Positions 2,361 through 12,335 of a stretch of 64,000 nt of DNA are shown piece by piece. The DNA is from Halomarina ordinaria (GTDB lineage Archaea; Halobacteriota; Halobacteria; Halobacteriales; Haloarculaceae): contig NZ_JARRAH010000001.1 of the NCBI RefSeq assembly GCF_030553305.1, positions 558,001 through 622,000 on the forward strand. The letters run 5' to 3'. A program made the position numbers and the translations under genes. Within the stretch, counting starts at the first letter, position 1. Every line of letters starts with the position of its first letter. Under the pieces are notes generated by a model, which worked only from the letters and a program-made list of their open reading frames with translations, was not told the origin of the DNA and did no database searches.

Positions 2361-2407
2361 CTAGTACGTACTAGTTCGGAACTAGAACTAGTTCTAGCCT
2401 AGACTAG
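2361..2407. repeat. Overlapping CTAG palindrome array
   Basis: Seven CTAG tetranucleotides start at 2361, 2371, 2382, 2388, 2394, 2399 and 2404. They are arranged as three overlapping dyads: CTAGTACGTACTAG (2361-2374, perfect), CTAGTTC-G-GAACTAG (2371-2385) and CTAGAACTAGTTCTAG (2382-2397, perfect). CTAG is strongly avoided in haloarchaeal DNA and is otherwise scattered singly in this window. An eighth copy lies inside the origin at 2118. The region from here to 2614 holds no recognised gene. Confidence 0.8.
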
Positions 2408-2614: not shown

Positions 2615-3625
2615 TCAGTCCTGGGACTGCTCCTGGCTCTGGTCCTGGGACTGGGGCTGGTCCGCGTTACCGCCGGCGTCACCGACCTGAATCCCGCCAT
2701 CCACCGTGGCGTCGCCGCCGCTCTGGCTCTGCCCGTCGGTGTCCTGGTTCTGCGTCATGCCGTCCTGACTCTGGGACTGCTCGCCGTTGGTCTGCTCCTG
2801 GTCCTGACTCTGGGTCTGGTCGTCGCCGTCGCCGTCACCGATTCCGCTCTGACCCTGGAACTGGGTCGTGGCGCCGTCGTCGTCGCTCTCGTGGAGCGAC
2901 TGGGTCTGGACGCCGCCCGACTGCGACGGTCCGGCGACCTGACCCTGAATCTGGTTCTCACCGGCGCTCGCTCCGTCGTTCGACCGGTCCTGCTGTGCGG
3001 ACTGGGTCCCGACCTGGAAGCCGCCGAAGCCGAAGCGGACCTGCGCCTGGCTCTGGCTCTCGTCCTGCGCCTGGGACTGCTCGCCGTCCTCGCCGTCCTG
3101 CGCCTGGGACTGCTCCTGGTTCTGGTCCTGACTCTGACTCTGGTCGCCGCCGTCGTTGAACTGGCCCTGGGCCTGTCGCTCGTCGAGCGACTGGCGCTGG
3201 TCCTGGTCGTTGTCCTCGCCCTCCTGAGTCTGCGTCTGGTCCTGACTCTGGTCCTGACTCTGGTCCTGCGAAGCGTCGTCAGCGTCCTGGACCTGCGACT
3301 GTTCCTCGCTGGCGTCCTGGTCCTGCTCCTGGTCGTTGTCCTCACCGCCCTGTGCCTGACCCTGGGCCTGGCTACGCCACTGGCTCTGGGCCTGCTCGCT
3401 GTCGTCGCCGAACTGGTACGACGACTGCGCCTGTTCGGCCGTCTGTGAACTGTCCTGGTCGTTGTCCTCTCCGTAGGAGTGATACCGCTCGTTCGTGTCC
3501 GCACTGACCACGCCGGCGAAACTGCCGGCGACGACCAGCGCGACGACCGCCACGACGAGGAGTCGCCCGGCAGTCCTGACTCGTCTGGCGCTCGATGTCG
3601 AGCGCCGGGTGCTATCTGGAATCAT
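2615..3625 (-). CDS. Secreted Gln/Asp-rich repeat protein (paralogue 1)
   Basis: Exported low-complexity protein, 336 residues from ATG at 3625. The N-terminus has basic residues, a hydrophobic segment (LLVVAVVALVVAGSFAGVVSA) and a likely cleavage before DTNE, so it is a probable Sec signal peptide. The mature part is dominated by Gln, Asp, Ser and Gly. Its first portion keeps about seven 21-residue units starting with GEDNDQ or variants (GDDSEQ, GEDGEQ), after which the period decays. No C-terminal anchor (PGF-CTERM, LPXTG) is visible. A GTG five codons upstream is possible, but the TATA element at 3653-3663 sits 28 bases before the ATG, which fits a leaderless transcript from the ATG. Function unknown; extracellular or surface matrix is inferred. 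Confidence 0.85.
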   Translation of the reverse strand: MIPDSTRRSTSSARRVRTAGRLLVVAVVALVVAGSFAGVVSADTNERYHSYGEDNDQDSSQTAEQAQSSYQFGDDSEQAQSQWRSQAQGQAQGGEDNDQEQDQDASEEQSQVQDADDASQDQSQDQSQDQTQTQEGEDNDQDQRQSLDERQAQGQFNDGGDQSQSQDQNQEQSQAQDGEDGEQSQAQDESQSQAQVRFGFGGFQVGTQSAQQDRSNDGASAGENQIQGQVAGPSQSGGVQTQSLHESDDDGATTQFQGQSGIGDGDGDDQTQSQDQEQTNGEQSQSQDGMTQNQDTDGQSQSGGDATVDGGIQVGDAGGNADQPQSQDQSQEQSQD

Positions 3626-3652
3626 CCGCGTCGGGACCACAGCCTACGCGTG

Positions 3653-3663
3653 CTTTATTATAG
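3653..3663 (-). promoter_or_regulatory. TATA-like promoter element, repeat protein 1
   Basis: CTATAATAAAG on the minus strand, 28 bases upstream of the ATG at 3625. The same element, with one change, precedes the next paralogue at almost identical spacing. Confidence 0.6.
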
Positions 3664-4204
3664 ACTGGTTGCGAACACTCTCAGACTGATTTAGCCGGCC
3701 ACCGCTCTCGTTAAAAGACTCATTATCGCCCTACGGCGGACGTGACGAACTCGTTCGTACCCCGATGAGAGTGCCGAAAGACGGCCGTTCACCGCCACGA
3801 GTACGTCCGACGACCGAACCGATTCGGTCGACCTACCGGCCCCTCACCGCTCCAGAGCAGGGGCCCGGAGCCCCGACTACCGCCCTGTCGCTCGCGGACC
3901 ACTCCCCCGACGCGCCCCGACCGAGCGGTACGACCGCCCGAGTCGTTCGAGACGCGACGGGTCGCGGTGCGCAGTCGTCCGTGACGAACGACGGTGGGAC
4001 CGAACGACGCGCGTGCCGCTGGCGGGTTCCGACGTGGCAGACGTGCCGTAGCGCGACCGACCGGAACACGACACGACCGCTCGTGTCCGATGCGACTGGC
4101 CGTGTCCGACAGGTGGCACGCGACGGACTGTGACGCGATGGACAGTGCGCGTCGCTCCTCGTCGGGGCGGCGCAAAAAACGGAAACCGATAGGCAGCAGC
4201 GTCG
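3664..4204. other. Gene-less spacer between repeat-protein genes
   Basis: About 540 bases between the promoter of repeat protein 1 and the 3' end of repeat protein 2. Open frames here are arginine- or threonine-rich shadows with no recognisable domain. No convincing RNA or dyad was seen. Confidence 0.6.
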
Positions 4205-6043
4205 TCAGAAGTCGTCGAACGAGACCTGCGTCTGTTCCTGACTCGACGACTGCGACTGCGACTGTTCGTTGTCGCTTCCGCTCTGGGACTGTTCGGCGTC
4301 CTGGTCGACCTCCTGGGACTGGTCCTGGTCGTTGTCGTCACCGGACTGCTGCTGGGCCTGACTCTGGTCCGCGGTCTGGCTCTGGTCCTGGTCGCTGTCG
4401 ACAGCGTCCTGGTCCTGCTCAGCGTCCTGGTCGACGTCCTGGTCCTGGTCCTGGTCGTTGTCTTCGCCGGTCTGACCCTGGGTCTGCTCCTGGTCAGCGT
4501 CCTGGTCCTGGTCCTGGTCGCTCAGGGCACCGTCCTGGGACTGTTCGGCGTCCTGGTCGGCGTCCTGGTCCTGGTCCTGGTCGCTGTCGTCAGCGTCCTG
4601 GGACTGGGTCTGTTCCTGGTCGGCGTCCTGGTCCTTCTCCTGCTCGTTCAGCACCCCGTCCTGGGACTGTTCGGAGTCCTGGTCGGCGTCCTGGTCCTGG
4701 TCCTGGTCGTTATCCTCACCGAACTGGTCCTGGCCCTGCGCCTGCTCGGCGTCCTGGTCCTGGTCCTGGTCGTTGAGGATACCGTCCTGGTTCTGCTCCT
4801 GGTCCTGGTCGGAACTCTGGTCCTGGTCCTGGTCGCTGTCGTCAGCGTCCTGGCCCTGCACCTGTTCCTGGTCGGTGTCCTGGTCCTGGTCCTGGTCGTT
4901 CAGGATGCCGTCCTGACTCTGACCCTGACCCTGTTCCGCTTCCTGGTCACCGTCCTGGTCGCTGTCCTCACCGGCCTGGACCGAACCCTGGTCCTGGTCG
5001 GTGTCCTGGTCCTGGTCCTGGTCGTTCAGGATACCGTCCTGACTCTGACCCTGGTCCTGGTCGGCGTCCTGGTCGAGGTCCTGCTCGTTGTCCTCACCGG
5101 TCTGGACCCCGCTCTGGCCCTGGTCGGTGTCCTGGTCCTGGTCCTGGTCGTTCAGGGCGCCGTCCTGGGTCTGACTCTGACCCTGCTCGGCGTCCTGGTC
5201 ACCGTTCTGGTCGCTGTCCTCGGCGTCCTGGCCGAGCGTCTGCTCCTGGTCGGTGTCCTGGTCCTGGTCCTGGTCGTTCAGCACGCCGTCCTGAGACTGG
5301 CCCTGGGACTGTTCGGCGTCCTGGTCACCGTCCTGGTCGTTGTCTTCACCGAACTGCGCCTGCGTGCTGTCCTGGTCGGTGTCCTGGTCCTGGTCCTGTT
5401 CGTTCAGGGCGCCGTCCTGGTCCTGACCCTGGCTCTGCTCGCTGGACTGGTCTTGCGACTGGTCGCTGTCCTCGGCGGACTGACCCTGGCTAGCGGACTG
5501 GTCGGCGTCCTGGTTCTGGTCCTGGTCGTTATCGACACCGTCCTGACCCTGACCCTGGGACTGGGCTGCGTCCTGACCCTGACTCTGGTCGTTGTCCTCG
5601 CCGGCTTGACCCTGCTCGGCGTCCTGGTCAGTGTCCTGACTCTGGTCCTGGTCGTTGTCGTCACCGGACTGTTCCTGTTCCTCGACCTGCTCGCTCGTCT
5701 GCGAGCCGGTCTGGCTGTTGTCCTCGCCGTACTGCTCGCCGACGGCGTCCTGGTCAGCGTCCTGGCCCTGGCTCTGGTCGCTGTCGTCAGCGTCCTGTGC
5801 CTGCTGCTGGGCCTGGGCCGCGCCCTGGAAGCCCGACTGGTCGCTGTCCTCGGCGTCCTGGGTCTGGTCGTTCGCCTGCTCGGTATCCTGGGACTGCTCC
5901 TGGTCGTTGTCCTCACCGTACTGGACCTGCTGCTGGTCCTGGATACCGTACTGCTCGAGGAACTGGGAACTGGCCGCGCCGTACTGCGAGGCGTCGGCGC
6001 TCTGGTCGCCGGTCTGCTCCTGGTCCTGTTCGTTCTCCTCGCC
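4202..6043 (-). repeat. 63-bp coding tandem repeat (29 units)
   Basis: DNA counterpart of the 21-residue protein repeats, units of 63 bp with a partial 126-bp super-period in the middle. The plus strand reads as runs of CTGGTC. Such arrays can expand or contract by recombination or slippage, so copy number is likely to vary between strains and the assembly may be fragile here. Confidence 0.85.
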
Positions 6044-6451
6044 GGCCTGTGCCTGCTGCTGGGCCTGCTGGTCGCCCTGGAAGACGAACTGGTAGTCGCT
6101 GGAACCGGCCTGACTCGCGTCACCGTCCTGCCACTGGGACTGGGACTGGCCCTGCGAACTCTCGTCGGCCTCCTGAATCTGGCCTTGCTCCTGGGCACCG
6201 TCCTGTGCGGTGTCCTGGTTGTTTCCGTCCCCGTCCTGGTCGCTGGACAGGTACTGGTCGCTATACTGCGTCGAATCCTGGTCGTTCGACATCGCTGTCG
6301 CATACGACCCGCCTCCGATCGCTCCGGAGACGGCGACGACGCTTCCCGTCAACACGAGGGTAGCCACCGTGAGCACCAGTAGGCGCGTCACGACCGCTCG
6401 CCCTCGAGAGGCGGTCTTCGTGTTACTTTCTTCGTCTGGTTTGTGCAACAT
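4205..6451 (-). CDS. Secreted Gln/Asp protein made of 29 tandem 21-residue repeats (paralogue 2)
   Basis: Large exported repeat protein, 748 residues from ATG at 6451 (754 from an upstream GTG at 6469). After a basic leader and hydrophobic signal (LLVLTVATLVLTGSVVAVSGA) and a short Q-rich region, the rest, residues 143-754 in the GTG numbering, divides without gaps into 28 units of 21 residues plus a last unit ending VSFDDF. In nearly every unit position 1 is Gly or Ala, position 4 is usually Asn or Ser, and positions 6, 10, 14 and 20 are nearly always Gln. From about unit 12 to 26 GEDN-type and G(I/A/V)LN-type units largely alternate, giving a 42-residue higher period. Even positions are mostly Gln and odd ones Asp/Glu. 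The spacing Q-x-G-x2-N-x-Q-x3-Q resembles curlin repeats with Gln replacing Ala. A beta-solenoid or amyloid-like fibre is inferred; function is unproven. Confidence 0.88.
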   Translation of the reverse strand: MLHKPDEESNTKTASRGRAVVTRLLVLTVATLVLTGSVVAVSGAIGGGSYATAMSNDQDSTQYSDQYLSSDQDGDGNNQDTAQDGAQEQGQIQEADESSQGQSQSQWQDGDASQAGSSDYQFVFQGDQQAQQQAQAGEENEQDQEQTGDQSADASQYGAASSQFLEQYGIQDQQQVQYGEDNDQEQSQDTEQANDQTQDAEDSDQSGFQGAAQAQQQAQDADDSDQSQGQDADQDAVGEQYGEDNSQTGSQTSEQVEEQEQSGDDNDQDQSQDTDQDAEQGQAGEDNDQSQGQDAAQSQGQGQDGVDNDQDQNQDADQSASQGQSAEDSDQSQDQSSEQSQGQDQDGALNEQDQDQDTDQDSTQAQFGEDNDQDGDQDAEQSQGQSQDGVLNDQDQDQDTDQEQTLGQDAEDSDQNGDQDAEQGQSQTQDGALNDQDQDQDTDQGQSGVQTGEDNEQDLDQDADQDQGQSQDGILNDQDQDQDTDQDQGSVQAGEDSDQDGDQEAEQGQGQSQDGILNDQDQDQDTDQEQVQGQDADDSDQDQDQSSDQDQEQNQDGILNDQDQDQDAEQAQGQDQFGEDNDQDQDQDADQDSEQSQDGVLNEQEKDQDADQEQTQSQDADDSDQDQDQDADQDAEQSQDGALSDQDQDQDADQEQTQGQTGEDNDQDQDQDVDQDAEQDQDAVDSDQDQSQTADQSQAQQQSGDDNDQDQSQEVDQDAEQSQSGSDNEQSQSQSSSQEQTQVSFDDF

Positions 6452-6479
6452 CCGCGTCGCATACCCCACCGCAGAGTCA

Positions 6480-6490
6480 CTTTACTATAG
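6480..6490 (-). promoter_or_regulatory. TATA-like promoter element, repeat protein 2
   Basis: CTATAGTAAAG on the minus strand, 29 bases before the ATG at 6451. It is the same element and spacing as in front of repeat protein 1, and both ATGs are preceded by CGACGCGG. This favours ATG 6451 over the GTG at 6469. Confidence 0.6.
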
Positions 6491-6788
6491 TTCGTTTAAT
6501 ACGGACTACATGAGCAATTAACACATGACAGAAATCGTAGGGTTCGGGTTAGACAGTCGATACAGGCCGTCTCGCGTGGGGTGAAACGAGACGAAACGTT
6601 CAACTAATCAAAAATATCAGATATAATACGTTCTCTTCCCTCTCGAGGTCGGGGCGTGAAACGAGCCCCACCGCTCGACCTCGTATTGGTACGAGTTAAC
6701 ATGATTTCGCTTTCCTTATCGGAATTGTCACTCGCCGAGTCGGGTCACCGTCTCGGTCTCCGTCGAAAAAACGGTCGACGTCGATGAG
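6491..6788. other. AT-rich spacer with a hairpin
   Basis: Region between the second and third repeat-protein genes. It is markedly AT-rich around 6600-6630 and contains a TATA-like ATATAATAC at about 6620-6628. A stem follows, with arms CGAGGTCG (6644-6651) and CGACCTCG (6676-6683) and an inner GGGC/GCCC pair. No protein gene was recognised. The TATA-to-hairpin distance of about 20-25 bases would suit a short plus-strand RNA, but this is weak evidence. Confidence 0.4.
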
Positions 6789-8456
6789 TTACGCGGCGGC
6801 CGCGGTGGCCGTCGTTCCGTTCGCGCTGGCCGTCGGTCCCTCGGGGGTCGACTGACCGAGCGCCGCCGAGAGCTGCTCGAGGACGTCCGGCGAGAGACCG
6901 GTCACGGTCTGACCGTTCTCGTCCTGAACGATGACGAGCGCCCGCGTCACGTCCGCGTCACCGGGGGTCTGCACCTGGATCTGCTGGGCTCCCTGTGCCT
7001 GTTGCTGGGAGTCCTCGCCCTCGCCGACCACCTGCTGCTGCAGGACGACCATCAGGAGGTTGACGGTGACGTTCCCGTCCGCCTGGACCTGCACGGTCTG
7101 GGTGGCGAGCGCCTGCTGCTGGTTGTCGCCCCCGGTCTGGCTCTGGGTGTTGTTCTGAACGGCGTCCTGCGACCCGTCGCCGTCGGACTGGGACTGCTCC
7201 TGGTCCTGGTCGGTCGACTGGTCCTGGGTCTGTTCGTTCCCGTCGCCGCTGCTCGACTGTTGCTGGTCCTGCTCGACGGCCTGGTCCTGCGACTGGTTCG
7301 CGTCGTCGCCGGTCTGGACCTGCTCCTGGTCCTGGTCGACCGTCTGGTTCTGGTCCTGAGTGCCGTTGGCACCCTCGTAGGACTGCTCCTGGTCCTGGTC
7401 GGCCGACTGGTTCTGACCCTGCGTAGCGTTCTCGCCGGTCTGGGCCTGTCCCTGGGACTGGTTCGTCCGCTGGTCCTGCGACTGGTCGCCGTCGGTTCCG
7501 TCGTACGACTGGTCGCTGTCCTGTTCGCTGTCCTGGGTCTGTTCCTGCGAGCTGTTCTCGCCGGCCTGGACCTGCTCCTGCTCCTGGTCGCTCCCCTGTG
7601 ACTGGTTCTGCGACCCGTTCTCGCCGTCGCCGACCTGACCCTGGTCGGCGTCCTGCGTCGCGTTCTGGGACTGGTCCTGGGTGCCGTTCTCACCGACCTG
7701 CCCCTGTCCCTGCTCTTGGTCGGCGCTCTGGTCCTGTGACTGGTCCGCGTCCTCGGCGGACTGGTTCGCCGACTGTTCGACGCCCTGGGTCTGGTTCCCG
7801 GCGTCGTCCGCCGGTTCGTCGTTCGCATCGGAACCGTCACCCGCGGAACCGTCGTGCGCGTTGGAGTCCTCCTCGTCGTCGCACTCGGTGGATTCTTCAC
7901 CCTCGTCGTCGGACGCGTCACCGGTTTCGTCGGTGTCGCTCGCGCCGTCACCGGCATCGGTCGACGCTCCGTTCCCGGAGAAGACGAACCCATCGTCGTC
8001 GTCCGACGAGTCCGCGGTCGACGAGCCGTCGCCCGAGGCGTCGTCGCCCGACGAAACGCGCTCGTCGGTGTCGTCCGCATCGGACGTGTCCGCCGCGCTG
8101 TCGCCGTCGTCGGTGTCGCCGTCGCCGCTCTCGGTCGAGCCGCCCGAACCGCTCCCGGCGTCGGCGTCCGCGCCTGTCGTCGGTTCGTCGGGCGCGTCTC
8201 GCGTGCCCGTCTCGTGGGTCGTGTCGGCCGTCGTCTCGTTCTCCGCCCCGAGGTCGGCGGGTCCGTCGCCCCCGTCGTCTCCGTCCAGCGCCCCCAGCGG
8301 GGCGTCACCGCCGAATCCCGCGAGCGCGACGGTTCCGACGCCCGCGGTCACGACGAGGACGGCGACCACTGCCACGATGGCACGCCGGGTGAGGCGGGTC
8401 CCCGGGGACCCCGACGCACGGTCGCTCGCCGGTTCGGTCGGTTCGTCCGAAGTCAT
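6789..8456 (-). CDS. Secreted or anchored Gln/Asp-rich, sequon-rich repeat protein (paralogue 3)
   Basis: 555-residue surface-type protein, ATG at 8456. A basic N-terminus precedes a hydrophobic segment (AIVAVVAVLVVTAGVGTVALA) acting as signal or membrane anchor. Next is a long Asp/Ser/Thr/Gly-rich acidic stalk, then a Gln-rich part with about eight 21-residue units of the type GENGTQDQSQN. The last 120 residues are less repetitive, with hydrophobic stretches (NLLMVVLQQQVV, RALVIVQDENG). About 17 N-x-S/T sequons fall mainly in the repeats, whereas paralogues 1 and 2 have almost none. Heavy N-glycosylation by AglB is therefore plausible. Head-to-tail location and shared unit length mark it as a relative of the two preceding genes. 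Function unknown. Confidence 0.85.
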   Translation of the reverse strand: MTSDEPTEPASDRASGSPGTRLTRRAIVAVVAVLVVTAGVGTVALAGFGGDAPLGALDGDDGGDGPADLGAENETTADTTHETGTRDAPDEPTTGADADAGSGSGGSTESGDGDTDDGDSAADTSDADDTDERVSSGDDASGDGSSTADSSDDDDGFVFSGNGASTDAGDGASDTDETGDASDDEGEESTECDDEEDSNAHDGSAGDGSDANDEPADDAGNQTQGVEQSANQSAEDADQSQDQSADQEQGQGQVGENGTQDQSQNATQDADQGQVGDGENGSQNQSQGSDQEQEQVQAGENSSQEQTQDSEQDSDQSYDGTDGDQSQDQRTNQSQGQAQTGENATQGQNQSADQDQEQSYEGANGTQDQNQTVDQDQEQVQTGDDANQSQDQAVEQDQQQSSSGDGNEQTQDQSTDQDQEQSQSDGDGSQDAVQNNTQSQTGGDNQQQALATQTVQVQADGNVTVNLLMVVLQQQVVGEGEDSQQQAQGAQQIQVQTPGDADVTRALVIVQDENGQTVTGLSPDVLEQLSAALGQSTPEGPTASANGTTATAAAA

Positions 8457-8906
8457 CTTGCTATCACGAACTAACACCCAACTATGATTATCTTAATTAC
8501 ACGTTGGGTAATTCGGATAACTCTCCGATTAACCGTCGGCAACGCGGACCGTCGTGAGCGACCACACGTCTCGGTCCGGCCCCTCGCCGTGGCCATCGTG
8601 ACGCAGACGTCTCCCCGCAGTCGCTCGGATTTCACACCGATTAACCCGCACTCTCACCGCGTCGCGTCCGTCGCGACCGCTTCGTCGTCCTCGCTCCGGC
8701 GAGGGTCTGTCCGCCCCGACGGTTCTTTCCCCGGATACGACTCGTCCTCGATAATACGACCGTTTATGCTCTCGACCGACCGGAGAGGGGGTCCAACCAG
8801 CCGTCTGTCGATGCGCCGTCTCGCGTCGACAGACGACCGGTGACGGCGTCGCTCGCGCTCAGACGTTCGGTCCCCCACCCGGATCGCTCCGAACGGTTTA
8901 TCTGGT
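8457..8906. other. Gene-less region upstream of repeat protein 3
   Basis: About 450 bases. Near 8486-8497 the minus strand has an AT-rich TTAAGATAATC stretch that could be the promoter of repeat protein 3. The rest contains only short unconvincing frames. Confidence 0.5.
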
Positions 8907-8922
8907 ATTAGGTGGACCTAAA
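8907..8922. promoter_or_regulatory. DtxR/Idr-type iron box
   Basis: ATTAGGT-GG-ACCTAAA, a two-base-spaced dyad with 6-bp perfect arms. It matches the TTAGG-n4-CCTAA pattern bound by DtxR-family iron repressors (Idr/SirR) in haloarchaea. It lies immediately before a broken ABC ATPase gene, a typical iron-transport target. Confidence 0.65.
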
Positions 8923-8925
8923 AAC

Positions 8926-9300
8926 GTGATTCGACCGACAGTGCATCGCGGGTCGCGCGGGCGACACTCGACGGTAGCGGACGCCGCGAGGGGAGCTCAC
9001 GGGGACGCGCGCGGACGACGGCGGGGACGCGATGACGGGCCGTCGACCTCGACCGACACCGTCCTGGGGTGGACGCTGATGCGGAACGGACACCGTGCCG
9101 ACGGCCGCTCGATGCGCGTCGACCTCGGCGGGGGAGCGGCCGGCGCCTGCGAACTGTTCGGCGAGGAACGCGCCGACGGCTACCCCTCGACGGACGAACC
9201 CGTCGTCGAGTGCGACTCCATCGTCGTCCCCGCGGGGGAGGTGACGGCGCTGGTCGGAGCGAACGGTTCCGGAAAGAGACCGTACAGTGCCCTCGAGTGA
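8926..9300 (+). pseudogene. Truncated ABC transporter ATP-binding protein
   Basis: Remnant of an iron/haem-type ABC ATPase. The frame from GTG 8926 reads about 60 residues of Arg-rich nonsense. From about 9112 it becomes a typical haloarchaeal ATPase N-terminus running into the Walker A motif (GEVTALVGANGSGK), and it stops nine residues later. The signature motif, Walker B and H-loop are absent, so it cannot hydrolyse ATP as a normal ABC subunit. The preceding iron box suggests the original was a siderophore or haem uptake ATPase. Partner permease genes are not nearby. A start at ATG 9112 is also possible. Confidence 0.6.
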
Positions 9301-9309
9301 GTGACCGTG

Positions 9310-10170
9310 ATGGGGAACACCCTGCGGACGATCCGTCGCCGCATCGACGCGCACTCGACGCCGACCGGTCGATTCTTCGTCCGGTGTGCGCGGACCGGCG
9401 AGCGTCCCGTCCCCGTCGCCACCGCTCGGTTCCTCGACCGCGAGACGGCCGTGGCGGCGGCCCGGCTGGCGTCGGCCTACCGTAGTGAACTGCGACGGTA
9501 CGACCCGGGCGTGCGCTGGCACGACCTCGTCGTCTGCGAGTCGGTCGGCCGAACCGCGGACGCGACGGCACCCGCTCGCGCCGACCGGACGAGGAACGAC
9601 CCGCTCGTCGAGTTCTGTCACGAAGTGGCGGCGACGGTCTTCGAGGCGCTCTCGGCCGGACCGCACCGCCGCGTCGAGCGCGCCGCGATGGACGCCTACC
9701 TCGAACACGCCGAGTCGGTGACCGACCCCGACGACCTCTGTCTCACGCTCCTCGTGGCCATCGCCCGCGCGCTCGACGAACACCTCGCCCCCGGTGAGCA
9801 GGCGGCCGTCCTCCGCGCGGCGGCCGACCGACTGGATGGCTCCGACGCGCCGCAGACGACCCGACCGCTCACGGCGGCGTTCGACGACCTCAGACGGGTC
9901 GCGCTCATCGACGACTACGAGGTCGAACCGGGCCGGGCGGTCGACGGCCGGCGGTGGACCGTTCGCGTCGACGGCTACGCGCTCGCCGCCGAGGAGGACG
10001 GACTCCCGACGCTCCCCATCGTCGTCGACCTCCTCCGGACGCTCCCGCGCGACGACGTCACCGTCACCGAGGCCAGCCGAATCGGCGGGGACTGGTCGCT
10101 CACGCTCGTCGTCGGGGGCTCCCGCTGTCGACCGCGAGCGCTCGCCCGGGTCCGGACAGGCGAGCACTGA
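9310..10170 (+). CDS. Conserved haloarchaeal hypothetical protein
   Basis: 286-residue acidic soluble protein without signal or membrane segments. The N-terminus (MGNTLRTIRRRIDAH, then CARTGERPVPV and a conserved RYDPG-x5-HDLVVCE stretch) resembles a family widespread in haloarchaea that is known only as domains of unknown function. A mid-protein helical part (residues about 95-170) and a C-terminal module (about 200-285) are distinguishable. ATG 9310 was preferred to GTG 9301 because family members begin at MG. It directly follows the broken ABC gene, with no obvious promoter of its own. The role is not known; family membership is from memory and unchecked. Confidence 0.75.
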   Translation: MGNTLRTIRRRIDAHSTPTGRFFVRCARTGERPVPVATARFLDRETAVAAARLASAYRSELRRYDPGVRWHDLVVCESVGRTADATAPARADRTRNDPLVEFCHEVAATVFEALSAGPHRRVERAAMDAYLEHAESVTDPDDLCLTLLVAIARALDEHLAPGEQAAVLRAAADRLDGSDAPQTTRPLTAAFDDLRRVALIDDYEVEPGRAVDGRRWTVRVDGYALAAEEDGLPTLPIVVDLLRTLPRDDVTVTEASRIGGDWSLTLVVGGSRCRPRALARVRTGEH

Positions 10171-10287
10171 CGCCCTCGGAGCGATTCGATATAGTGAACA
10201 CCGGTTCATCACGGATGGTGGAGTGAGCGCGCGGACGGCCGGTATCCGACGGGACACCCGTGGAGTCGACCCGAAACGGCCGACGGC

Positions 10288-10295
10288 TATTTACA
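10288..10295 (+). promoter_or_regulatory. TATA-like element before Bat-type regulator
   Basis: TATTTACA about 25 bases upstream of GTG 10317, which supports a leaderless start there. Confidence 0.4.
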
Positions 10296-10316
10296 TCCGC
10301 TACCGAATGTCCGTGC

Positions 10317-12335
10317 GTGAGTGGTGATTCGGGTGCAGCGGGGGGAGACGCTCGGAACCGACGCACTCGGGAGGACCGATGTGCGTACGACGAGTCCGTC
10401 GTCGGGAGAGTGGACGAAGTACCGCTCTTCCGGGACCTCCTCGCGCGCTGCACCGACGGGGTGTTCGTGGTCGACGACGGGGGGACGGTCGTCCTCGCCG
10501 ACGAGGCCGGTGCGGCAGTCGTCGGCGAGACACCGGACGTGGTCCTCGGGGGGTCGCTAGCGGCACTCGCGGGCGACCGGTGCGGAGAGCGCGTCCTGGC
10601 CGCTATCGACGACGCCCTGACCACCGGCGAGCGGAGCGACGTCGTGCTCCCACTGGACGGCGAAACGACCGGCACGGTTTCGTTCCGGGCCGTCGACCAC
10701 GGCGACGACCGCCTCGTGACCGGGGTGGTCCGCCGTGGAGGGTGGAGTCGGCGGGAATCCCCTGGTTCCCGCGAGCGGTATCGGCGCCTCTTCGACGCGG
10801 CACCGGACCCGATCGTCGTCGCCGACGCGACGACCGGAGAGTTACTCGACGTCAATGCGGCCGCGACGACGCTCGTCGGCGTTCCTCGCGACGAACTGGT
10901 CGGCCGCCAGCAGGCGTCGCTCCACCCGTCCGACGAGCGCGCGTACTGTACCGACGTCTTCGGCGACTCCCCGGAGGGCGCGGTCGAACGACGGGAGGTC
11001 CACGTCGTCCGCGACGACGGGCGTCGAATCGCCGTCGAAGCGACCGTCGCCACCGTCGAACTGGAGGGTAGAGCCGTCACCCAGACCATCTTCAGGGACG
11101 TCGGCGACCGCCAGCGCCGCGAACGCGAACTCGCGCTCGACCGCAACGAACTCGCGCGGCTGAACCGCGTCAATCGCATCATCCGGCGTATCAACCGCGC
11201 GCTCGTCGACGCCGAGAACCGTTCGGAGGTCGAGCGGGCCGTCTGCGAGGGGGTGGTCGAGGAGGCGCCGTACGTCTTCGCGTGGGTCGGCTCGGTCAAC
11301 CGGGCCCAGCAGGCGGTCGTCCCCGAGACGTGGGCCGGCGACCCCGAGGGCTACCTCGACGACATCGCCATCCCGCTGGGGGAGGAACCGCGAGGGCCGA
11401 CGGCGCTCGCCGTCGAGACCCACGAGGTACGCGCGATACAGGACCTCGCGGTCGACGAGTCCTACGGCCCGTGGCGCGACCAGGCGCTCGCCCGCGGGTA
11501 CCGGTCCTCGGCGGCGATTCCGGTCGTCTTCGAGGACCGACTGTTCGGGGTCCTCAACCTGTACGCCGACGAAGCGGACGCGTTCGACACGAAAGAGCGC
11601 GAGGTCCTCGCGGACCTCGGTCGCGCCATCGGACACGCGCTGAACGCACTCGAGCGCCGGGACGCGCTGATGAGCGACAGCGTCCTCGAGGTCGAGTTGC
11701 GCGCGGAGACGACCTCGGGGGGGTTGCTCGCGGCCGCGGCCGACGAGGGCGTCGTCCACTTCGACCGCATCATCCCGTCCGGCGAGGACCGCTACCTGCA
11801 GTACGTGACGGTCACCGGCCTCTCCGCCGACCGCTTCGAGGAACTGGTCGACCGATACCCGGGGTACGCGGACGTCCGGAAGATACGCGAGGACGAGGGG
11901 ACGGGGGAGGCGGTCTTCGAACTGCAGGCGACCGACCCCCCGGCGTCCTCGCTCGTCGCGAGTTACGGCGGACGCGTCACCGACGTCGTCGCCGACGACG
12001 AGGCGCTCACCCTGACGGTCGAACTCCCGACGCAGACCGACGTTCGCCAGTTCGTCGAGGCGCTCTCGGAGCCGTTCCCGGACGTCGCACTCGTCTCACA
12101 GCGGACGGTCCCGCGGCGCAACCGGACCCCCGACGGCATCCGCGTCTCCCTGGAGGACGAACTCACCGACCGCCAGCGGACGACGCTGGAGACGGCCTAC
12201 TACGCCGGCTACTTCGAGTGGCCGCGCGACAGCACCGCGGAGGACGTGGCCGAACGCCTCGACGTCTCCTCGCCGACGGTCCACAAGCACCTCCGGGCGG
12301 CCGAACAGAAGATCCTCCAGATGCTCCTCGACTGA
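10317..12335 (+). CDS. Bat-type PAS/GAF sensor-regulator with HTH-10 domain
   Basis: Bacterio-opsin-activator-like transcriptional regulator, 672 residues. In order: a divergent PAS-like segment (about 35-140), a PAS domain (RYRRLFDAAPDPIVVAD onward, about 155-275), a GAF domain (about 290-440, ending near a KEREVLADLG helix), a Bat domain (about 455-600) and a C-terminal HTH-10 helix-turn-helix (LTDRQRTTLETAYYAGYFEWP through SSPTVHKHLRAAEQK). These proteins sense redox, light or small molecules and activate transcription without a kinase step. GTG 10317 was chosen from the TATA position. GTG 10260 and 10410 are alternatives. The targets are not evident from the neighbourhood. Confidence 0.88.
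   Translation: MSGDSGAAGGDARNRRTREDRCAYDESVVGRVDEVPLFRDLLARCTDGVFVVDDGGTVVLADEAGAAVVGETPDVVLGGSLAALAGDRCGERVLAAIDDALTTGERSDVVLPLDGETTGTVSFRAVDHGDDRLVTGVVRRGGWSRRESPGSRERYRRLFDAAPDPIVVADATTGELLDVNAAATTLVGVPRDELVGRQQASLHPSDERAYCTDVFGDSPEGAVERREVHVVRDDGRRIAVEATVATVELEGRAVTQTIFRDVGDRQRRERELALDRNELARLNRVNRIIRRINRALVDAENRSEVERAVCEGVVEEAPYVFAWVGSVNRAQQAVVPETWAGDPEGYLDDIAIPLGEEPRGPTALAVETHEVRAIQDLAVDESYGPWRDQALARGYRSSAAIPVVFEDRLFGVLNLYADEADAFDTKEREVLADLGRAIGHALNALERRDALMSDSVLEVELRAETTSGGLLAAAADEGVVHFDRIIPSGEDRYLQYVTVTGLSADRFEELVDRYPGYADVRKIREDEGTGEAVFELQATDPPASSLVASYGGRVTDVVADDEALTLTVELPTQTDVRQFVEALSEPFPDVALVSQRTVPRRNRTPDGIRVSLEDELTDRQRTTLETAYYAGYFEWPRDSTAEDVAERLDVSSPTVHKHLRAAEQKILQMLLD

Follow-up and report, generated by a model that had tools for sequence, protein, structure and literature searches.

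A CTAG array beside a replication origin

The stretch of 64 000 nucleotides from Halomarina ordinaria that we analysed (the window) carries an orc1/cdc6 initiator gene on the minus strand [693–1922; TIGR02928 (E 1.9e-109), PF22703 and PF09079]. Next to it lie two identical origin recognition boxes (ORBs) of 22 bp: ORB1 on the plus strand (2008–2029) and its exact inverted copy ORB2 on the minus strand (2137–2158). The interval between them (2030–2136) is, by its position, the presumed unwinding region. An orc gene adjoining inverted ORBs around such a region is the layout of an archaeal Orc1/Cdc6 origin, and from this architecture we infer origin activity close to the array described below. 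An earlier note on this DNA had placed the array beside a replication origin, and the initiator gene and the perfect ORB pair agree with that. Downstream of the orc gene (620–641) is a third ORB-like sequence, which differs at 3 positions; it is reminiscent of Haloarcula hispanica oriC2, where a downstream ORB region has been reported as restraining (PMC3936714). Three long, repetitive ORFs rich in Q, D and S occupy 2615–8477 on the minus strand (2615–3640, 4205–6469 and 6789–8477), the first of which had no Pfam match.

Seven CTAGs are packed into 47 bp (2361–2407), starting at 2361, 2371, 2382, 2388, 2394, 2399 and 2404 and thus at steps of 10, 11, 6, 6, 5 and 5. They form a perfect 14 bp palindrome (2361–2374), a perfect 16 bp palindrome (2382–2397) and a 14 bp dyad with one mismatch (2394–2407). 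None of the seven is enclosed by the ORB pair, since the array starts 203 bp past ORB2. One more CTAG (2118–2121) lies between the two ORBs (all of these, like the inter-ORB interval, are strandless). Our recount reproduced exactly the number, spacings and eighth site given in the earlier note, as well as its two palindromes and its dyad.

CTAG had also been called rare, and the window contains 21 where dinucleotide shuffles predict 93; eight of the 21 are the array and the site at 2118. A Markov estimate ranks CTAG second in depletion among the window's tetranucleotides (o/e 0.37), behind GATC (o/e 0.25). No shuffle contained seven CTAGs within 47 bp: the highest count was 4 among 5000 shuffles of 1923–2614 and 3 among 100 of the complete window. 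These counts confirm the cluster as such.

Orthologous origins in the genus

The window's genus (g1) is represented by eight genomes, including the window's own (G000). Three of the others carry an orthologue of the window Orc (86–95% identity), and ORB2 is conserved in all three (G005, G004 and G001). The earlier note had named absence of the array from orthologous origins as evidence against its reading. An array was present in two of the three: G005 has six CTAGs within 34 bp, some 80 bp beyond ORB2, and G004 has two CTAGs about 58 bp past ORB2 and four more about 1 kb further, with other DNA in between. It was missing from the intergenic region of the orthologous origin in G001, which has a CTAG triplet within the orc coding region. 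Clusters therefore occupy orthologous places in related genomes with the exception of G001. G000, G005 and G004 share the position of the single CTAG just before ORB2; G001 also has a CTAG in its inter-ORB interval, but at another position. Between the CTAGs, no sequence conservation was visible by eye among the orthologous origins.

In G005 and G004, as in the window, this origin is followed by a Q-rich ORF of similar kind. In G004, the roughly 1 kb (3023–4080 of the stretch examined) between the two CTAGs near the origin and the four near the Q-rich gene contains a cupin-like ORF (by eye); an insertion may have split this array.

The array could instead belong to the Q-rich gene, as a regulator array, transcription terminator or cruciform unrelated to the origin. 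Its position downstream of that gene in the window, G005 and G004, its palindromes and the four CTAGs of G004 that stay with the gene, about 1 kb from the origin, fit this explanation. However, arrays recur at many orc genes genome-wide (see below), and the fold of 2350–2418 was no more stable than that of shuffled sequence [z −0.28 (RNA, minus strand) and 0.14 (DNA, plus strand)]; the counterpart arrays gave z −1.05 (G004, again no better than shuffles) and −2.34 (G005). A terminator scan found none. We rejected a cruciform, hairpin or terminator on these grounds, so that the cruciform offered as an alternative in the earlier note is not supported, and we regard an element of the Q-rich gene as improbable overall.

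GATC triplets differ sharply within the genus, with 207–342 in G003, G004 and G005 vs 4–16 in the remaining five, a pattern that would fit gain or loss of a GATC methylase system within it.

CTAG clusters across genomes

We searched the genus for CTAGN{0,12}CTAGN{0,12}CTAG, merging overlapping or adjacent matches, and 36 relatives with gaps of 0–8. The orc genes were placed by profile search of the genome stretches around the loci or taken from an earlier Orc homology search, and a locus of the genus count was scored as orc-linked when within 2 kb of an orc gene. Seven of the eight genomes of the genus contained a total of 18 triplet loci, 17 of them orc-linked (one within the orc gene itself). 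The 36 relatives had 34 cluster loci, 22 orc-linked and 12 not; one of these 12 is at a contig edge, and another is some 4.8 kb away from the start of an orc gene. Clusters are thus not equally common away from origins; equal frequency would have spoken against the earlier note. The same comparison was less favourable in the Halorubrum-like, methyltransferase-poor genus g24 (52 genomes), where only 10 of 35 loci were orc-linked. With chance linkage set at 1.7%, from up to 17 orc genes per 4 Mb, the binomial tails were 1e-29 (genus), 5e-31 (relatives) and 3e-10 (g24, computed on 36 loci); they are only a guide, because loci of related genomes are not independent.

In G000, the upstream regions of eight of 16 loosely matched orc places held 38 CTAGs in 12 kb, or 3.17 per kb vs 0.27 per kb in the rest. 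One of the eight regions had none.

The exception among the 18 loci of the genus, the sole G000 triplet away from an orc gene (G000:C1:419555), is flanked by two equally scoring tRNA genes and has a gene nearby that resembles a tyrosine recombinase (by eye); the region (5060–10691 of G000:C1:412500–426500) is probably an integrated mobile element. Two or three CTAGs also lie about 19–35 bp upstream of a recombinase-like gene in four close homologues. We dismissed a recombinase promoter as a second conserved CTAG target, since only these four closest of 20 homologues checked have clusters. A further dense cluster was seen in non-coding DNA of G022:C72 (about 5144–5210 of the stretch examined), with no orc gene within the 9 kb examined; it is perhaps an origin with another initiator.

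CTAG sites between the ORBs of oriC1

The conserved oriC1-type orc served as the yardstick across genomes (36 loci from relatives, six of these from the window's genus). At the 36 loci, the 1.7 kb upstream of this gene contained 3.40 CTAG per kb vs 0.31 per kb in the flanks, which was 1.8 times the frequency in shuffles (z 9). GATC showed no upstream excess over shuffles in any group.

The excess was concentrated between the ORBs. At 29 loci, the inter-ORB intervals held 137 CTAGs vs 38 in shuffles (sd 5.4; maximum 51 in 300), a density of 15.8 per kb with a median of 5 per locus and no locus without a site. Immediately outside the ORBs the density was down to 1.4–1.9 per kb. Putative methylation targets are thus concentrated in the origin itself, as in systems of the Dam/SeqA type. 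Seven of the 36 relatives were left out of this count for want of a recognisable ORB pair, as were three of 50 Halorubrum-like loci in the corresponding count below; Halorubrum-like G068 and G094, whose origin is at a contig start, were also left out. G017 (60% complete) and G033 (77% complete) were kept among the 29 despite having no strong methyltransferase match.

A CTAG doublet, CTAGRACTAGAA, is kept in six congeneric oriC1 regions whose surroundings diverge. The bases flanking CTAG are A or T in 80% of cases. Neighbouring CTAGs show an excess of spacings of 5 bp (n=26) and 6 bp (n=24) vs 4 bp (n=9) and 7 bp (n=6), counted over 79 loci, some possibly from the same genomes. Helical phasing at 10.5 bp was not significant, which leaves only the excess of 5–6 bp neighbours.

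A candidate CTAG methyltransferase and its absence

The earlier note had stated that haloarchaea carry an orphan CTAG methyltransferase (Zim). The strongest PF01555 match of the window's genome, P0001, is chromosomal (G000:C1:1505642–1506661) and adjoins an ORF that is TFB-like by eye. Methyltransferases of this type (E below 1e-90) were found in 54 of 59 genomes of relatives vs eight of 52 genomes of g24. This distribution is in line with that of the published orphan CTAG enzyme, which is described as patchy in Halorubrum (PMC6471742), and P0001 is thus a candidate enzyme of the Zim/HVO_0794 type that would recognise CTAG.

In several lineages without the enzyme, the inter-ORB enrichment is missing too. 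In g24, 40 loci without enzyme had 14 CTAGs between the ORBs (21.9 in shuffles). The seven g24 loci with enzyme had two (4.0 in shuffles): in Halorubrum-like species that have the enzyme, the enrichment has not returned. Enzyme-bearing loci from other genera of the same family had 8.6 CTAG per kb between the ORBs (15 loci, 14 genera), with three loci at zero. At least two inter-ORB CTAGs were present at nine of these 15 loci vs none of 11 loci of the family without enzyme (Fisher p 0.0024), and genus means also differed with enzyme status (p 0.009, G122 removed). In this comparison G125, G139 and G145 had no ORB pair and were uncounted; G122 was removed afterwards since its pair lies downstream of orc.

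A quick Orc tree required 14 changes of the enzyme label, at least four of them on well-supported branches, and placed genera g44 and g53 apart from g24. The number of independent enzyme losses is uncertain because the tree has many weak branches. We conclude that CTAG enrichment at oriC1 is absent in several lineages that lack the methyltransferase. GATC had been considered as a replacement origin motif in such lineages and was discarded, as no group was enriched in it.

These data bear on a further explanation, in which CTAG was purged genome-wide and non-coding DNA near origins merely spared, so that the clusters are relics without a role. CTAG is indeed strongly depleted elsewhere, origin DNA is non-coding and AT-richer, and clusters away from orc genes exist (1 of 18 loci in the genus, 12 of 34 in the relatives and 25 of 35 in g24). 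Sparing would not, however, raise inter-ORB CTAGs above the shuffle expectation while leaving GATC without enrichment, and the equivalent g24 regions, of similar composition, fall below their expected CTAG count. The doublet conserved in six species also argues against it. We therefore think it improbable that the clusters are such relics.

A plasmid-type origin that keeps its array

Nine g24 genomes carry a second kind of origin, called plasmid-type here on the basis of contig sizes, with an array 380–404 bp (once 774–778 bp) upstream of orc. The enzyme is missing in eight of these nine hosts. Similar arrays, with repeated AACAAATCGAT-type elements around them, occur in the enzyme-bearing genomes G001, G022 and G039. 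The association of CTAG sites with the methyltransferase thus holds at oriC1 across lineages and fails at the plasmid-type origin. That eight enzyme-less hosts keep the array argues against a strict dependence on methylation, and we abandoned that form of the idea. The exception could stem from recent transfer, an unrelated CTAG methyltransferase or a binder that is blind to methylation.

A binder of this kind is central to another explanation: the array would be the site of a dedicated CTAG-binding protein, such as a chromatin protein or helicase recruiter, and methylation would be secondary or irrelevant. The persistence of arrays in the eight enzyme-less hosts speaks for it, and the 5 and 6 bp spacings and A/T neighbours suggest a protein footprint. 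There is also a parallel in Sulfolobus, where UBP binds the ucm motif midway between ORBs and is required for origin firing (PMC12141716). A binder alone, however, does not account for the lack of oriC1 enrichment in lineages without the methyltransferase, and the spacing has no significant 10.5 bp phase. On balance we hold a dedicated binder to be unlikely, though a serious contender.

Discussion

The explanation that we favour, and to which we give an even chance, is that the array is a target cluster of the orphan m4C methyltransferase within an orc1/cdc6-dependent origin and makes initiation responsive to methylation. Most relatives likewise have a tight CTAG cluster at an origin. The array probably lets a DNA-marking enzyme mark the site at which replication starts, and it may help control the timing of chromosome copying. 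Until initiation, CTAGs within the unwinding region and next to it would carry methyl groups on both strands. Passage of the fork would leave them hemimethylated, and until the enzyme catches up the origin would be less able to fire again, either if hemimethylated DNA opens or loads helicase less readily or if a reader protein binds it. To our knowledge, no counterpart of SeqA has been described for a CTAG system.

Several observations support a methylation-responsive origin: the array lies by orc and the ORBs, clusters are orc-linked, CTAGs are concentrated between the oriC1 ORBs (137 vs 38), a doublet is conserved, the enzyme is present in 54 of 59 genomes, and the enrichment is absent from lineages without the enzyme. 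Others count against it. The seven enzyme-bearing g24 loci are not enriched and three of 15 enzyme-bearing loci of the family have no CTAG; the plasmid-type array occurs without the enzyme; the window array itself lies outside the ORBs; and one of eight G000 regions is CTAG-free. Deletion of the H. volcanii enzymes caused no growth defect (Ouellette et al. 2018, PMC5867850), a further point against the model, although this species is able to grow without origins. The methylation idea of the earlier note is partly supported: orc-linked clusters and a candidate enzyme are in its favour, and the array kept without enzyme at the plasmid-type origin goes against a strict form of it.

As background, m4C makes the DNA duplex less stable, and oriC opens more easily when methylated by Dam. 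More speculatively, CTAG may be built into the haloarchaeal unwinding element and m4C between the ORBs may license firing, in which case archaea would have arrived by convergence at an equivalent of E. coli oriC with its many GATCs. A dedicated reader of CTAG would then also act at plasmid origins without methylation, and lineages that lost the methyltransferase would have rebuilt oriC1 without CTAG. We offer this wider proposal tentatively and would sooner expect it to fail than to hold.

Little is known about how archaea keep an origin from firing a second time, and Fullmer et al. 2019 (PMC6471742) leave open what the widespread orphan CTAG methyltransferase does. Blow et al. 2016 (PMC4752239, Fig. 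6D) reported that CTAG clusters lie upstream of orc genes in Haloarchaea and correlate with this methyltransferase. There as here, several orc genes of one genome are preceded by CTAG clusters in non-coding DNA, and the window's genome encodes a candidate for the orphan enzyme. The window array, non-coding, upstream of orc1/cdc6 and denser than chance, belongs to this known kind, since the general association is already published. Of the H. volcanii origins, Ouellette et al. 2018 found just one to be dense in CTAG (PMC5867850).

CTAG does not appear in the main text of three papers on haloarchaeal origins or replication (PMC3528665, PMC3936714 and the review PMC7776575), and we found no published report of CTAGs placed between ORBs in the literature searched, which excluded most subscription journals. 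What is new here is that CTAGs are placed between the ORBs at oriC1, that they are not enriched there in several enzyme-less lineages, and that a plasmid-type origin forms an exception. With sites placed at base resolution, enzyme-less lineages and this exception, the published correlation becomes directly testable. Blow et al. 2016 worked at gene scale with 500 bp windows, whereas we placed sites relative to the ORBs; an array outside the ORBs, as in the window, and one at a plasmid-type origin without enzyme differ from what is described there (PMC4752239).

Two other archaeal systems offer partial likenesses. The Sulfolobus ucm motif with UBP is likewise a short sequence flanked by ORBs in an archaeal origin; it differs in sequence and phylum and is a single motif rather than an array, and its description in the parts of PMC12141716 on which we draw mentions no methylation. 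The G-rich inverted repeat enhancer of H. hispanica oriC1 is also a cis element just inside the ORBs that modulates firing, but its sequence differs from CTAG (PMC3936714).

The comparison with GATC in E. coli oriC, drawn in the earlier note, is already in print (Blow et al. 2016, PMC4752239; Ouellette et al. 2018, PMC5867850), and the concentration of sites at the origin fits it. Both systems have palindromic 4 bp sites gathered at an origin: methylation targets in E. coli, with Dam and SeqA (PMC6471742, PMC5867850), and presumed ones here. In E. coli, however, the mark is m6A on a frequent GATC, whereas here it would be m4C on CTAG, at an archaeal Orc1/Cdc6 origin and in genomes where CTAG is rare elsewhere.
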